A stretch of 64,000 nt of DNA, taken from Candidatus Manganitrophus morganii. Its GTDB lineage: Bacteria > Nitrospirota > Nitrospiria > SBBL01 > Manganitrophaceae. The translations under genes were made by a program, and so were the position numbers. The number at the start of each line of letters is the position of its first letter. Within the stretch, counting starts at the first letter, position 1. Below, piece after piece: positions 52,261 through 57,586 of this stretch. The notes beneath the pieces are model-generated. The model had not been told where the DNA came from. It did no database searches and worked only from the letters and a program-made list of their open reading frames with translations. Where the stretch lies: assembly GCA_021651055.1 (NCBI GenBank), contig JAJHOH010000001.1:2418001-2482000 (forward strand), in the 5' to 3' direction.

Positions 52261-52617
52261 CGTTTTAGGTAAGAACGGAGTGAGGTTTTAAGACTGGTTT
52301 TTGCTTTTGAAATTGATTTTGTAAGCTCCTTCTCGTTGTCCTGCTTTTCCGTCTGTTTGCCTCTGAGATCTTCCAACCTCTTCGTATTTTTTGATCCTTC
52401 CAGCGGCGTTTTTTAGCGCTTGGGCTCCGTTTATTGCTCATAAACGATTGCACAAGGAACGTTTTACTGCGCGTTCAGGTGCAATTCGACATGTGTGACA
52501 GGAGCGGTCTCACGGGAGCTCCCCATGGGGAGCGGACCTCCTTGATGAGCCGCGAGTTGATCTTAATTGCATCCTGCGAATTAGAACCGACGGCATCGCA
52601 GGAGAGAAGGAGAAAAA
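52261..52617 (+). other. Long untranslated leader (~355 nt) before the 334-aa protein
   Basis: No convincing gene lies here on either strand. The first 150 nt are pyrimidine-rich. CGTTTAT-TGCTC-ATAAACG forms a hairpin at 52428-52446. A perfect 16-bp palindrome GCTCCCCATGGGGAGC is at 52518-52533. The leader ends with GAGAAGGAG before the ATG. No known riboswitch or small RNA family was recognised. A 67-codon frame beginning at 52434 lacks a ribosome binding site. Confidence 0.5.
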
Positions 52618-53622
52618 ATGAGTATTCCTACCGCTAAGAAAGATTCGTTTGAAACCCTCCAGAAAGAAAACCAAGCCCTCCGAAATCAGAACGTCGCCCT
52701 CCTCGGCGACGGAGAAGTTTTTATCCGCCGGGACGCCTCCGGAGTCATGCGCGCCTGCAAGATGCCGGTCCCCCTTTCCGAGCGCAACAAAGAGATCCAG
52801 CGGATCGGCGAGCACTGGATGATCACGTCGGCCGGCGCCGACAAACTCAACCAGCTTCCCGGCCTGAACATCATGACCCCCCCCTCCGTCGTCGTCGACG
52901 GAAAAGAAGTGTCCAACCCCTACATCGAACGGCATCCGAAGACGCGGGCGATCCAGTCGGTTTATGTCCGGAAGATCATCTTCGGTCCAAACCCGATCGG
53001 GAATATGGTCGGCGTCGACTATACCCTTTTTTTCAACGTCTATACCTACTTTCTCCAGGACCTTCAGGTGAAGGTCCGGCGCTACCCGGTCTGCGGGACC
53101 TATGGGATGAAGGAGAAGCCGCCCGCTTCCCTCTCCCCCGATCGTCCGGGACGTGCGCTCGTCTTTTTCGAAATTGAAGATCCGGTCGGCCTCTGGGTCG
53201 ATCTCTCGCATGGGGAGATCCAGGAGGTTTTCAATCAGCATGTCAGCCGGCAAAAATTCGGAGACCGCCACGCCCAGTCGATTTGCACCCGAAACGCGCT
53301 GTTGAAGCATCCGGCGATCGCCGCCAAAACGGTCGAGGTCCAGAACGGGGTGGCCAAGATCACGGTCTATGGCTTCAAGCACGATTTCGATTTCAAGAAA
53401 TTCGCCGAGCTCGGCGAAAAGATCGAAAAGGGACAGACCGATCCGAGAGAGGTCCAGGTCGAACGGGCGATCGAAGAAGCCCGGTTCGAAGAGGTCAGCC
53501 TGGAAGGGGCGCTGGAAGGGGATGAATACGGCGCCATCCCGCCGGAAGATCAGGAGCGGATATCGGGTCCGTCCAAACCGGCGGAGAATCCCCCCGCGGC
53601 GAATCCCGCCAAGGAGGGATAA
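52618..53622 (+). CDS. Unrecognised 334-aa protein encoded directly before an SMC-like ATPase
   Basis: The protein has 334 residues, probably cytosolic, with no signal peptide. An N-terminal helix (ETLQKENQALRNQ) is followed by a mixed alpha/beta body: GEVFIRRDASGVMRACKMPV, MITSAGADKLNQLPGLNI, IFGPNPIGNMVGVDYTLFF, and FGDRHAQSICTRNALLKHPAI. The end is acidic and Pro/Ala-rich, probably disordered. I do not recognise a family. The RHAQSICTRNALLKHPAI segment is reminiscent of a segment near the end of RecT-type annealing proteins, a weak hint only. GAGAAGGAG sets the start. The next gene begins one base after its stop, so the two proteins are very likely made together. Confidence 0.75.
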   Translation: MSIPTAKKDSFETLQKENQALRNQNVALLGDGEVFIRRDASGVMRACKMPVPLSERNKEIQRIGEHWMITSAGADKLNQLPGLNIMTPPSVVVDGKEVSNPYIERHPKTRAIQSVYVRKIIFGPNPIGNMVGVDYTLFFNVYTYFLQDLQVKVRRYPVCGTYGMKEKPPASLSPDRPGRALVFFEIEDPVGLWVDLSHGEIQEVFNQHVSRQKFGDRHAQSICTRNALLKHPAIAAKTVEVQNGVAKITVYGFKHDFDFKKFAELGEKIEKGQTDPREVQVERAIEEARFEEVSLEGALEGDEYGAIPPEDQERISGPSKPAENPPAANPAKEG

Positions 53623-55683
53623 ATGTCGAAGCTGGCACGTCTTCGTCTTCATAACTTTAAGGGGAAGCGGTCCGAGTGGGCGATCGCTCCCAAGATGCTC
53701 TTGGTCGGACCGAACGGGGCCGGCAAGAGCGCCTTGCTCCAGGCGGTCATGGTCGGCATTCTCGGCTATGAGCCGCGCCTTGGCCGGACTCCGGCTTCCG
53801 TGGTTCAACTTGCCTCCGGCCGGGAGATGTCGGTGGAGATCGAGACCGAAGCAAAATTCATCCTTCACCGAACCTTTAAGCTCAGCCGGGGGGCGGTCTC
53901 GACCTCGGTTTGGGTTTCGCCCCATCAAGGGGAGAAGAATCTGGCCGACGCCCATCGGCGCATCGCCGAAGAAGTGGGTGATTTTGCAGTTTCTTTCGAT
54001 CTCAATGCGTTTCTCTCCCTCTCCGATGCGAAGAAGCGGGCGTTCCTCTTCGGGCTCTCGCCGACGAAAGAGCTCGGATGGGAGAAAGCCCATCTGAAGA
54101 GCCGGCTGATCCAAGCGGTCCGCGCGCCTGTCAGCTCCCTCACGCTGCACGCCTGGATCGACAAGGCCTTCGCCCTCTGGACGGAGGGCCACGATCTTCA
54201 GTCGAACTTCGATCGGATGCTGATCCATCTTAAGAAAGAATTCTCCCTCTGGTCCCTTCGAAAGAAGGAAGGAATCTCGGCGGCGCGCCGGATGCTTCAC
54301 ACCCGAAATCAGGAGCCGTTCGTTCCTTCCGAAGCGGCACGGACGACCCAACGGGAGATCGAAGAGATTCAAGAAAGGATCATCCTCATCCGGGAAGAGC
54401 TTGCCAAGGATGAGGCGCGTCGGAAATCGGCGGAAGCGCGGGGACGAGAAATCGAAGGATTACGGTCCCGTTTGATTGAGCGGGAGGCCGCCGCGGCCTC
54501 CGTTGAGAAGATCCGAACGCAGATCGCCGAACTGCGGAGCCGGTCGTTTGATCGCGTGCCGCTGCAAGCGGAAAGAGACCAGGTCGAGCAGGCGACGGCC
54601 GCCCTCTTTGGCGAGATCGAGCAGGAGGAGAAGCGGCTGAATGGGCTGAAGATCGCATTGGAGATGGAGAAGAAAGGGCTCGATCGCGCCGAATCGGTTC
54701 AGGGTATCTGTCCCGTGGTCGAAGGGATTCAATGTCCGGTCGACTTCACCCCGGTGATTACACAGGGACGGGATCGGCTCTCCGCGCAGGAAACGGCGAT
54801 CTGCGAGAGCGAGTCGTTGCAATCGATGCGATGGCAGCGCTATCGGGGATTGCAGGCGAGCCTCGGACCCCTTCAGGCGCGCGCTCTGTCGCTGGATCGG
54901 GAAGAACGCGAAACGCAAAAGCAGATCGCCGTCTGGGAGGAGATGCTTCAGCGCGCTGGCCAAGGGGAGGAGAAGCAGGCGGAACTGATGGCGGCCTTGG
55001 CCCGGCTGGAGGCGGAAGAGGCGTCCGACGGCGGTTATGCCGATCCCGCCGATCTGATCCTCCAAAAAGAGGGGCTCGAGCGCCATCTGGAGGAACTGAA
55101 GCGCCGTCTCGCCGAACAGGAGGAGCGGCGCTCCCTCTGGATCGCCTACCAGCAGAACCAGGTCGACCTGAAAAAGGCCGACGCGAATGTGGAGGCGCTG
55201 AAACAGCTGATTGTGGCCCTCGGCCCAAAGGGGCTTCAGGGGGAGATGATCAAGGAGATGATCCGGCCCTTTTCGAAGATCGTCAATGACCTGCTCCACG
55301 CGATCGATCCTGAAAAAGAGTTGAGCTTCCGTTTTCAAGATGTCCGGGGAAACGAAATCTTCGAGATGGGGTGGAAGCGGGGCGAGCATTTCATCCCGTT
55401 TGAAGCCCTCTCGACCGGCGAGCGGGTGCTCTTCTCCGCCGCGCTGATGACGGCGTTGATCCTCTTCCGCGAGCCGCGCTGCCGGTTGTTGCTGGTCGAT
55501 AATCTCGAAAGCGTCGACCTTCACCACCGCCGGCGGTTCATCGAGGCGCTCTGTGCCTTCGTCGATGAAGGGCACCTCGATCATTTCATTGTCGCGGGGG
55601 TGGAAGGAATTCCGCCGGGAGATGCCGCCCGCCTTGGAGTGAAGATGATCCAGATGGCCGACCCGGCAATGGCTTCGGCTTAA
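53623..55683 (+). CDS. SMC/SbcC-like AAA ATPase with central coiled coil
   Basis: The protein has 686 residues. Walker A GPNGAGKS (29-36) follows LARLRLHNFKGKRSEWAI, as in RecF/SbcC/Rad50 proteins. FLSLSDAKKRAFLFGL (130-145) is typical of phage- and SbcC-like ATPases. Two coiled-coil arms (about 230-355 and 385-530) flank a hinge with two Cys (C363 and C371, ICPVVEGIQCPVD), similar to but longer-spaced than a Rad50 zinc hook. The signature is LSTGER (596-601) and Walker B LLLVDN (D626), with Asn instead of the usual Glu. No nuclease or TOPRIM domain is present. AAGGAGG precedes the ATG. It probably works on DNA ends with its neighbours. Confidence 0.8.
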   Translation: MSKLARLRLHNFKGKRSEWAIAPKMLLVGPNGAGKSALLQAVMVGILGYEPRLGRTPASVVQLASGREMSVEIETEAKFILHRTFKLSRGAVSTSVWVSPHQGEKNLADAHRRIAEEVGDFAVSFDLNAFLSLSDAKKRAFLFGLSPTKELGWEKAHLKSRLIQAVRAPVSSLTLHAWIDKAFALWTEGHDLQSNFDRMLIHLKKEFSLWSLRKKEGISAARRMLHTRNQEPFVPSEAARTTQREIEEIQERIILIREELAKDEARRKSAEARGREIEGLRSRLIEREAAAASVEKIRTQIAELRSRSFDRVPLQAERDQVEQATAALFGEIEQEEKRLNGLKIALEMEKKGLDRAESVQGICPVVEGIQCPVDFTPVITQGRDRLSAQETAICESESLQSMRWQRYRGLQASLGPLQARALSLDREERETQKQIAVWEEMLQRAGQGEEKQAELMAALARLEAEEASDGGYADPADLILQKEGLERHLEELKRRLAEQEERRSLWIAYQQNQVDLKKADANVEALKQLIVALGPKGLQGEMIKEMIRPFSKIVNDLLHAIDPEKELSFRFQDVRGNEIFEMGWKRGEHFIPFEALSTGERVLFSAALMTALILFREPRCRLLLVDNLESVDLHHRRRFIEALCAFVDEGHLDHFIVAGVEGIPPGDAARLGVKMIQMADPAMASA

Positions 55684-55701
55684 TCAATCGGCCGGGTTTG
55701 C

Positions 55702-55729
55702 GTAGGGGCGACGCATGCGTCGCCCCTAC
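55702..55729. repeat. Perfect 28-bp palindromic element before the UvrD-like gene
   Basis: Arms GTAGGGGCGACGCA and TGCGTCGCCCCTAC join without spacer. One compensated pair distinguishes it from the copy at 14884-14911. It occupies most of the 70-bp gap between the SMC-like ATPase and the helicase. Confidence 0.88.
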
Positions 55730-55753
55730 AATCACATTTCATGGAAAGCGAAT

Positions 55754-57586
55754 ATGAAATTAATTGAAAATCTCAATGAAGCACAGCGGCGGGCGGTGGA
55801 GAGCCGCGCACAGGTGATCCTCGTGAATGCCGGCGCCGGAAGCGGGAAGACGGCGGTCTTAAGTCTCCGGTTGGTCCGGCTCCTGAAAGAGGGAATCTCC
55901 CCTTGGAATATGCTGGCGCTTACCTTCACACGCCATGCGGCGGGGGAGATGCGCCGCAGGATCGAGGCGGAAATCGGAGAGCAGCGCAAGCTGAGCCTTC
56001 TGACCTTCCATGCGTTTGCCGCCTCTTTGCTGGAGCGGTGGGGGGAAATTCTCGGCTATCGAAAGAACTTCTCCATCTACGATCAATCCGACCAGGTGGA
56101 GCTGCTCCGCGAAATTCTCGACGAGCTGGGGATCAAGCGCGACCCGGCGGAAGCGGTCCGGGAGTTCCAGACCGGCCGGTTTTTCCAGAATGATCCCCTT
56201 TTTCGCGAATATCAGCGCCGGCTGAAGGAAGGAAACGCTTTCGATTATCGCGGGCTGTTGCAGTCGGCCAACCTCCTCCTTCGTGAGCACACCGCCGTCC
56301 GAGAGACCTACCGATCGCGCTTCAGCCATCTTTTGGTCGATGAAGTGCAGGATACCGATTCGGATCAGTGGGAGATGATCAACCTGCTGCAGCCGGCGCA
56401 TCTCTTCATGGCGGGGGATGATTATCAGAGCATCTACCGGTTTCGCGGCGCGAATATCGACCACATCCTCTCCTTCCCGAAGATGGTCCCCGAGGTGGAG
56501 GTCATTCGGCTTGAGCAAAATTATCGATCGACCGGTCCGATCGTCGAGGCGGCCAACCGGCTGATCGCCCACAATCGATACCAGCTCGAAAAGCGGCTTC
56601 GGACCGATTGGGCCGGATCGGTCGCCGTCTCCGTGATGCAGGCCGAGACCCCGGAGAAAGAAGCGGAGGCGGTGGCGACGATCATCAAACGCGATTATGG
56701 AAAGGCGGAGTGCCGTCCTTCCGAGATGGCGATCCTCTATCGGACCCATGCGCAGGCGGTCCCACTTGCCAGGGCGCTCCAGCTTCGAAAGATCCCCTAT
56801 CAGGTGGTCACCTCCTCCTTTTGGGAGAAAGAAGAGGTCCGGCATCTCTTGAGCTTCCTGATCATCCTTTACAACCCGGGGGATGATTATCATTTAAAGA
56901 AGATCCTTCCGAAGGAGCATTATTCTCCGGAGGTTCTCTCCTCGCTCAACCTTGAAGCGGCCCGCGCCGAGCGGCCTCTCTTCGATCTGCTTCCCGCCTC
57001 CTGGTTCAAAGAGCATCTTCTCGATCTTCAGGAGAAGCTCTCGAAGGGAGCGTATCCGACGGTTTTGGATCTGGCGAAGGAGGTCGATCGCCGATTTCAG
57101 TTCTCCGAGCGTTACCGAAAAGAGGGTTATCCGCTGAAGGAAGCCCATCTGCAGAAGCTCTTCGAGAAGATCGCCCGTTGGCAGGCGGAGAATCAGGAAG
57201 ATCACTCGCTCTCCGCTTTTCTGCGGTGGCAGTTTACCCGATCGGTCCAAGACGAGTTGCGGGATGAAGAGGACTCCGTGAAGCTGCTGACGATCCACGC
57301 CGCCAAGGGATTGGAATGGCCGACCGTCTTTCTCTGCGGCCTCGAACAGGGGCTCTTCCCGCTCCGGCCAGCGCTTTCGTCGGAGGCAGAGTTGGAGGAA
57401 GAGCGGCGGTTGATGTATGTGGCGATCACCCGCGCGAAGGAACGCCTCTACCTCCTCTGGTCGAAGGAGCGGACCCGTTTCGGGCGGCCGGTTCGAAACC
57501 GGCCGAGCCAATTTCTCACCGAAATGATCGGAACGATCCCTTCTCCTCAATCGGGTTCCGGGTCCGCTTCTCACCTCGCTGATTAG
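55754..57586 (+). CDS. UvrD/Rep-family superfamily 1 DNA helicase
   Basis: The protein has 610 residues with all SF1A motifs: Q-motif LNEAQRRAVES, motif I NAGAGSGKT (25-33), Ia LALTFTRHAAGEM, II LLVDEVQDTDSDQWE, III AGDDYQSIYRFRGA, IV LEQNYRSTGPIVEAA, V VKLLTIHAAKGLEWPTVFLCG and VI EERRLMYVAITRAKERLYLL. Such enzymes unwind DNA 3' to 5'. It is somewhat shorter than UvrD/PcrA (about 700) and lacks their C-terminal extension. It lies 70 bp behind the SMC-like ATPase on the same strand, with a palindrome between, so shared transcription is likely but not certain. Start ATG 55754 is inferred from the family N-terminus; its Shine-Dalgarno is weak. Confidence 0.9.
   Translation: MKLIENLNEAQRRAVESRAQVILVNAGAGSGKTAVLSLRLVRLLKEGISPWNMLALTFTRHAAGEMRRRIEAEIGEQRKLSLLTFHAFAASLLERWGEILGYRKNFSIYDQSDQVELLREILDELGIKRDPAEAVREFQTGRFFQNDPLFREYQRRLKEGNAFDYRGLLQSANLLLREHTAVRETYRSRFSHLLVDEVQDTDSDQWEMINLLQPAHLFMAGDDYQSIYRFRGANIDHILSFPKMVPEVEVIRLEQNYRSTGPIVEAANRLIAHNRYQLEKRLRTDWAGSVAVSVMQAETPEKEAEAVATIIKRDYGKAECRPSEMAILYRTHAQAVPLARALQLRKIPYQVVTSSFWEKEEVRHLLSFLIILYNPGDDYHLKKILPKEHYSPEVLSSLNLEAARAERPLFDLLPASWFKEHLLDLQEKLSKGAYPTVLDLAKEVDRRFQFSERYRKEGYPLKEAHLQKLFEKIARWQAENQEDHSLSAFLRWQFTRSVQDELRDEEDSVKLLTIHAAKGLEWPTVFLCGLEQGLFPLRPALSSEAELEEERRLMYVAITRAKERLYLLWSKERTRFGRPVRNRPSQFLTEMIGTIPSPQSGSGSASHLAD

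Follow-up and report, generated by a model that had tools for sequence, protein, structure and literature searches.

A phage-derived operon for homologous recombination, resident in the chromosome since the ancestor of Candidatus Manganitrophus, is our preferred reading (probability roughly 0.7) of three genes that adjoin recA in these manganese-oxidising Nitrospirota. The operon would pair an annealing-like protein of 334 aa, here called P334, with an SMC/Rad50-like ATPase and a UvrD-like helicase that replace the exonuclease. The trio is probably a captured phage recombination kit because P334 sits where phages keep their annealing protein, and the strongest evidence on its role is the exchange of P334 for a Rad52-type protein in an otherwise identical phage operon. 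Gene context thus makes an annealing function of P334 likely, favouring the RecT-like role that the initial annotation had guessed. From the narrow host distribution we infer that transfer ran from phage to host; the reverse direction is possible, and the domesticated function could differ from the one in phages.

Organization and conservation of the three genes

The window, meaning the whole 64,000-nucleotide stretch analysed here, belongs to a complete chromosome of 4.29 Mb. An ORF check of the window bore out the earlier description of three consecutive same-strand genes, the first two 0 nt apart. All are adjacent and on the + strand: P334 (52618..53622, 334 aa, PHROG 32428 family), a proposed single-strand-annealing-like protein; the SMC/Rad50/SbcC-like ATPase (53623..55683, 686 aa, PHROG 32642 family); and the UvrD/PcrA-like SF1 helicase (55754..57586, ~610 aa, phrog_1967 family). 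The P334 stop codon (TAA, 53620-53622) runs straight into the ATG of the ATPase gene at 53623. As listed, the helicase ORF spans 55715-57586 (623 aa), and its first ATG (55715) falls within a perfect 28-bp palindrome, GTAGGGGCGACGCATGCGTCGCCCCTAC (55702..55729), located between the ATPase and helicase genes. Alignment with the genus genomes indicates that the helicase probably starts at 55754 rather than 55715, therefore leaving a 70-nt gap behind the ATPase. The length of this gap differs within the genus, and among the intergenic regions compared the palindrome is confined to the window and its closest relative, being absent from more distant genus genomes; by its distribution it appears to be a recent repeat outside the conserved module. 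A related stretch, GTAGGGGCGAGGCGG, is present at about 57599.

A near-consensus promoter had also been claimed for the operon, and the + strand ahead of 52618 showed none of the sigma-70 type. This region does contain an inverted repeat with 8-bp arms, TCCTGCGA-N16-TCGCAGGA (52572..52603, + strand), a candidate RNA hairpin or operator that ends three bases before the P334 Shine-Dalgarno sequence (AAGGAG, 52607-52612). All eight pairs (8/8) are kept in five genus genomes, two of them with compensatory changes on both sides and one as G-C/G-U. The perfect copy is the only one in the genome, and Rfam gave no match. The repeat may form an RNA hairpin controlling P334, or may act as an operator; this reading is tentative, as the sequences compared are few (five) and related.

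P334 was present in 6/6 Candidatus Manganitrophus genomes sampled, and the order of the trio is kept at one chromosomal site wherever the contig permits. All 52 genomes from other genera in the order and class sample lacked it, and a phylum sample of 296 genomes yielded no carrier beyond the genus. In four relatives the trio is flanked by recA, thpR, cinA, and pgpA on one side and by NHL, response-regulator, and algH genes on the other; the contig of a fifth relative is fragmentary and begins inside P334. The neighbours as a whole (pilT, recA, thpR, cinA, pgpA, algH, and GH57) are housekeeping genes, with no defence island and no further genes of phage type noted there. The initial annotation had proposed looking for conserved co-occurrence and for a location in defence islands: the trio does recur, being kept in 6/6 genus genomes and repeated with its gene order in dozens of phage contigs, and the location proved to be among housekeeping genes. 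The module was also to stand or fall with the identity of P334 and the proximity of the genes; P334 matches no known housekeeping family, and the three genes are kept as neighbours in related genomes. All three are under purifying selection, with dN/dS of 0.03-0.08 for P334, 0.10-0.18 for the ATPase, and 0.06-0.09 for the helicase, and the P334 values resemble those of RecA (0.06-0.08). In one relative (G004, contig L012, 676-15187), matches to P334, the ATPase, recA, pilT, and GH57 are split between frames, which probably reflects assembly errors.

P334 and its phage relatives

P334 had been described as unassignable, and this assessment held: it is matched by PHROG 32428 (phrog_32428, E 4e-54), a family of no known function, and had no convincing model match in Pfam, NCBIfam, or PADLOC. 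In these three collections the RecT, Erf, and Rad52_Rad22 family models left it unmatched, and there was no OB-fold profile match. A short segment said to be reminiscent of RecT is undetectable by profile. Sequence profiles of P334 compared with those of Sak/Rad52, RecT, and Redbeta also gave no match, a comparison without power because the known pairs Sak-RecT and RecT-Redbeta failed to match each other as well.

An AlphaFold2 model of P334 was built from an alignment of 24 sequences, from which the row of an annotated plasmid record was left out. Its mean pLDDT is 72, with ten-residue block means mostly of 79-93 over residues 51-230; an earlier model from four near-identical sequences (pLDDT 32) was discarded. 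The predicted elements are strands at 112-124 and 130-140, a helix at 141-155, strands at 181-187 and 190-195, and a helix at 199-230. The Rad52/RecT superfamily fold consists of a helix crossing a three-stranded sheet, a beta-hairpin, and more helices (PMC11783212). Foldseek returned nothing at E <= 0.001, with RAD52 chains at E about 1. By VIA-align, three RAD52 entries scored Z 4.3-4.7 over 117-120 residues, under a Z of 8; of the solved structures listed they aligned over the greatest length, but uS5 ribosomal proteins reached a higher Z, up to 5.2, over 86-88 residues. This list re-ranks Foldseek matches only, and RecT and Redbeta structures are not among its entries. Viral models also gave weak matches, some of them to RecT, ERF-like, Rad52-like, and "phage recombination" proteins. 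As judged from the model, the similarity to RAD52 is within background, and the prediction is compatible with a Rad52-type fold without proving one.

More telling were the genes that surround P334 in viruses. An IMG/VR scan with the genus alignment recovered four contigs in which P334 is 31-35% identical and the ATPase and helicase genes follow it as in the host. A wider scan for P334 gave 27 loci in two groups. Every locus of the first carries the trio in the host order. The second has no ATPase or helicase relatives nearby, and there the gene after P334 encodes a PD-(D/E)XK-type protein that matches the Cas4-domain exonuclease phrog_1990 (1e-12, 9e-12); in L036, a direct scan placed the match (2e-6) one small ORF after P334. 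This exonuclease was found by search in 8/9 second-group records and by direct scan in the ninth (L048), and in 0/11 of the first group. No RecT, ERF, or Rad52 match was seen in 20 P334 phage records, which may be incomplete. In a tree of P334, the host copies cluster as a separate clade that joins the phages with the exonuclease partner, under midpoint rooting and with a long-branch warning. Several first-group proteins (L019:7971-8999, L020:5011-6162, and others) end in terminal-Phe tails such as GGDMF, GEGEF, and GEVKF; the host copies have no such tail.

The ATPase family served as a second entry point into IMG/VR, yielding 39 loci with the helicase downstream in 39/39 and P334 upstream in 35/39; these counts are of loci rather than independent events, because some contigs recur between scans. 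L268 holds a complete trio whose P334 is 37% identical to that of the window. In two of the 39 loci, L254 and L255, the P334 slot is filled by a Rad52_Rad22 protein (PF04098, E 4e-23 and 2e-21; 82 and 77 bits against a Pfam cut-off of 20.3), and the L254 protein also matches phrog_1097, "Erf-like ssDNA annealing protein," at 1e-56. At L259, the gene immediately before the ATPase and helicase pair encodes an SSB (PF00436, E 2e-33). At L262 (2923-3816), a phrog_10048 protein occupies the slot before the same two genes and may be another unrecognised annealing-type protein.

The association of such an ATPase with an annealing protein has precedent, since Firmicutes phages carry SMC genes beside recT and sbcC beside sak4 (PMC8093625). 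A three-gene module that includes UvrD was not described in the literature searched. Neither P334 nor the ATPase had a match in the annotated phage collection, so we know of no named isolate phage with the module.

The ATPase and the helicase

The second gene had been called SMC/SbcC-like without an SbcD partner, and both parts of this description were confirmed. The protein matches SMC_N (E 8e-8) and AAA_21 (1e-7) in Pfam, PHROG 77 "SbcC-like" (E 5e-28), and, over almost its full length, phrog_32642 (E 2e-78; function unknown); its head is similar to that of Rad50. Neither its surroundings nor the whole genome yielded an SbcD over the curated cut-off, by which SbcCD was ruled out as an identity for the system. 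By sequence there was also no second copy of the ATPase in the genome, and the protein had no TOPRIM match.

Motifs were compared in ten members, the window's ATPase and nine phage homologues. Walker A (GPNGAGKS) lies at 53707..53730 (+ strand). A mid-coil C-X7-C pair (C363 and C371; 54709..54735, + strand), present in 10/10 aligned members, is a candidate variant of the Rad50/SbcC hook. In the stretch from the ABC signature LSTGE to Walker B LLLVDN (55408..55503, + strand), Asn627 replaces the usual catalytic Glu. All ten members share Walker A and the signature, and the residue after the Walker B Asp is Asn in 9/10 of them and Asp in 1/10. Its consistent lack of this glutamate suggests that the family hydrolyses ATP slowly and may work as a switch. 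In the closest phage trio (L268:1884-3959), the ATPase has a CPTC hook, with Walker B Asp-Asn as in the family. Like SbcC/Rad50 of MRN-type complexes, the ATPase has a split head, a long coiled coil, and paired mid-coil cysteines; unlike them, it has no SbcD/Mre11 partner, C-X7-C rather than CXXC, and Asn for the Walker B Glu.

The third gene is, as proposed, a UvrD-like SF1 helicase, with matches to the UvrD N- and C-terminal domains (PF00580, 1e-62; PF13361, 3e-54), to phrog_1967 (E 2e-109), and to PcrA of 1pjr (E 1e-91). It shares its Pfam domains with the UvrD/PcrA/Rep SF1A helicases, has no nuclease domain, and is an extra member beside the host PcrA, one of four further UvrD-type proteins being encoded in the genome besides it. 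It is 36-38% identical over its full length to the phage-module helicases, against 30-33% to the host's others, and in a tree with several long branches it joins the former (support 90/92) and not the latter.

Proposed function and competing explanations

Under the preferred reading, P334 would most likely act like RecT, Redbeta, and Rad52, binding complementary single strands and annealing them. The ATPase would most likely bind or bridge DNA ends under an ATP switch, with no nuclease partner, and the helicase, moving 3'-5', would open the duplex at ends or nicks and supply P334 with single strands, a step that in the sister lineage of P334 phages would be the job of the Cas4-type exonuclease. 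In the host, the trio would probably help to repair breaks and collapsed forks, either independently of RecA or in its support. RecET and lambda Red-type modules likewise set an annealing-type gene beside a DNA-end-processing gene in phage recombination regions, a layout matched by the second-group phages with their Cas4-type exonuclease; the trio differs in having an SMC-like ATPase and a UvrD-like helicase in place of a nuclease and in being chromosomal and genus-wide in its host. P334 shares with the Rad52/RecT/Redbeta superfamily its operon slot and type of partner, and the order of sheet, helix, hairpin, and helix in its model is compatible with their fold (PMC11783212), but sequence similarity is undetectable and the fold match is below significance. 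By analogy only, the DdrA/DdrB single-strand-annealing repair of Deinococcus (PMC3834827) also keeps a chromosomal annealing-type protein for repair, without an ATPase-helicase operon.

The alternative that P334 is an ssDNA-binding or replication/recombination-mediator protein, working with the ATPase and helicase in end processing or replication restart, strikes us as unlikely. It would account for the SSB in the slot at L259, for the replication-initiator genes found near the phage genes, and for the phenylalanine tails of the first group, which we would compare to those of SSB. The same slot, however, holds a Rad52/22 annealing protein at two loci, the second-group exonuclease adjoining P334 is more in keeping with an annealing partner, and P334 lacks both an OB-fold profile match and, in the host, the tail. 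Less probable still is that the trio is an old prophage remnant fixed without joint function, or that the helicase is an independent housekeeping PcrA. The phage type of all three genes fits a remnant, as do the variable ATPase-helicase gap and its palindromic repeat in two genomes, but low dN/dS in all three genes, their conserved order, and a site otherwise free of noted phage genes speak for a functional unit. As for PcrA, the genome encodes a separate and much better one (868 against 438 bits for the trio helicase), which just misses the NCBIfam cut-off of 911.

The initial annotation had left open a recombination, repair, or anti-phage unit, of which recombination is now the best supported. 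That the operon was recruited to anti-phage defence, using its ATPase and helicase in a Gabija- or Lamassu-like way, we consider highly improbable. PADLOC does report LmuB (E 3e-13) and AriA (1e-9) for the ATPase and GajB (4e-87) for the helicase, but these matches are generic to the ATPase and helicase superfamilies, and for the helicase, PcrA outscores every GajB model. There is neither a TOPRIM domain nor an effector nuclease, the trio is inherited vertically at a single genus site among housekeeping genes rather than being patchily distributed, and its homologues sit in phage replication/recombination regions. The likeness to Gabija (GajA-GajB) noted earlier extends to an ATPase gene adjoining a UvrD-like helicase gene; the absence of TOPRIM was correctly seen, and the ATPase family, the additional P334, and the phage relatives set the trio apart. 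As candidate systems, Gabija was rejected with a GajA match (E 5e-4) confined to the Walker A region (residues 3-43 and similar short stretches), and Lamassu with an LmuB match limited to the ATPase, P334 free of effector matches at E <= 1, and GajB-type helicases as the best matches of the third protein.

Returning to the recombination operon, a bolder version in which P334 founds a further Rad52-like annealing family, and in which a nuclease-free phage pathway, its single strands prepared by the Rad50-like ATPase with degenerate Walker B and by the UvrD-like helicase, has become a core repair function of the genus beside recA under control of the leader hairpin, is put forward tentatively, at somewhat less than even odds. 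The proposal gives a testable function to two phage families of unknown role, PHROG 32428 and PHROG 32642, and suggests an annealing-protein module that uses a helicase and an SMC-type ATPase instead of an exonuclease. The manganese-oxidising Manganitrophus would also exemplify a bacterial lineage in which a phage recombination module has become fixed. A P334 that does anneal DNA could serve for recombineering in hosts where RecT proteins perform badly.

It is also worth recording where else such sequences occur. A contig scan limited to two peptide patterns matched two Manganitrophaceae genomes (one of them Candidatus Manganitrophus GAC4) and gave one short Bacteroidales match; further chromosomal copies may exist. 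The Clostridioides plasmid pESS17301a (L022:8004-8966) encodes a distant P334 relative (phrog_32428, E 2e-21) that adjoins a 1787-aa helicase/methyltransferase/DUF960 protein, with E2-ligase-like and ThiF genes upstream and the gene of an SMC-like AAA ATPase a few kb away.
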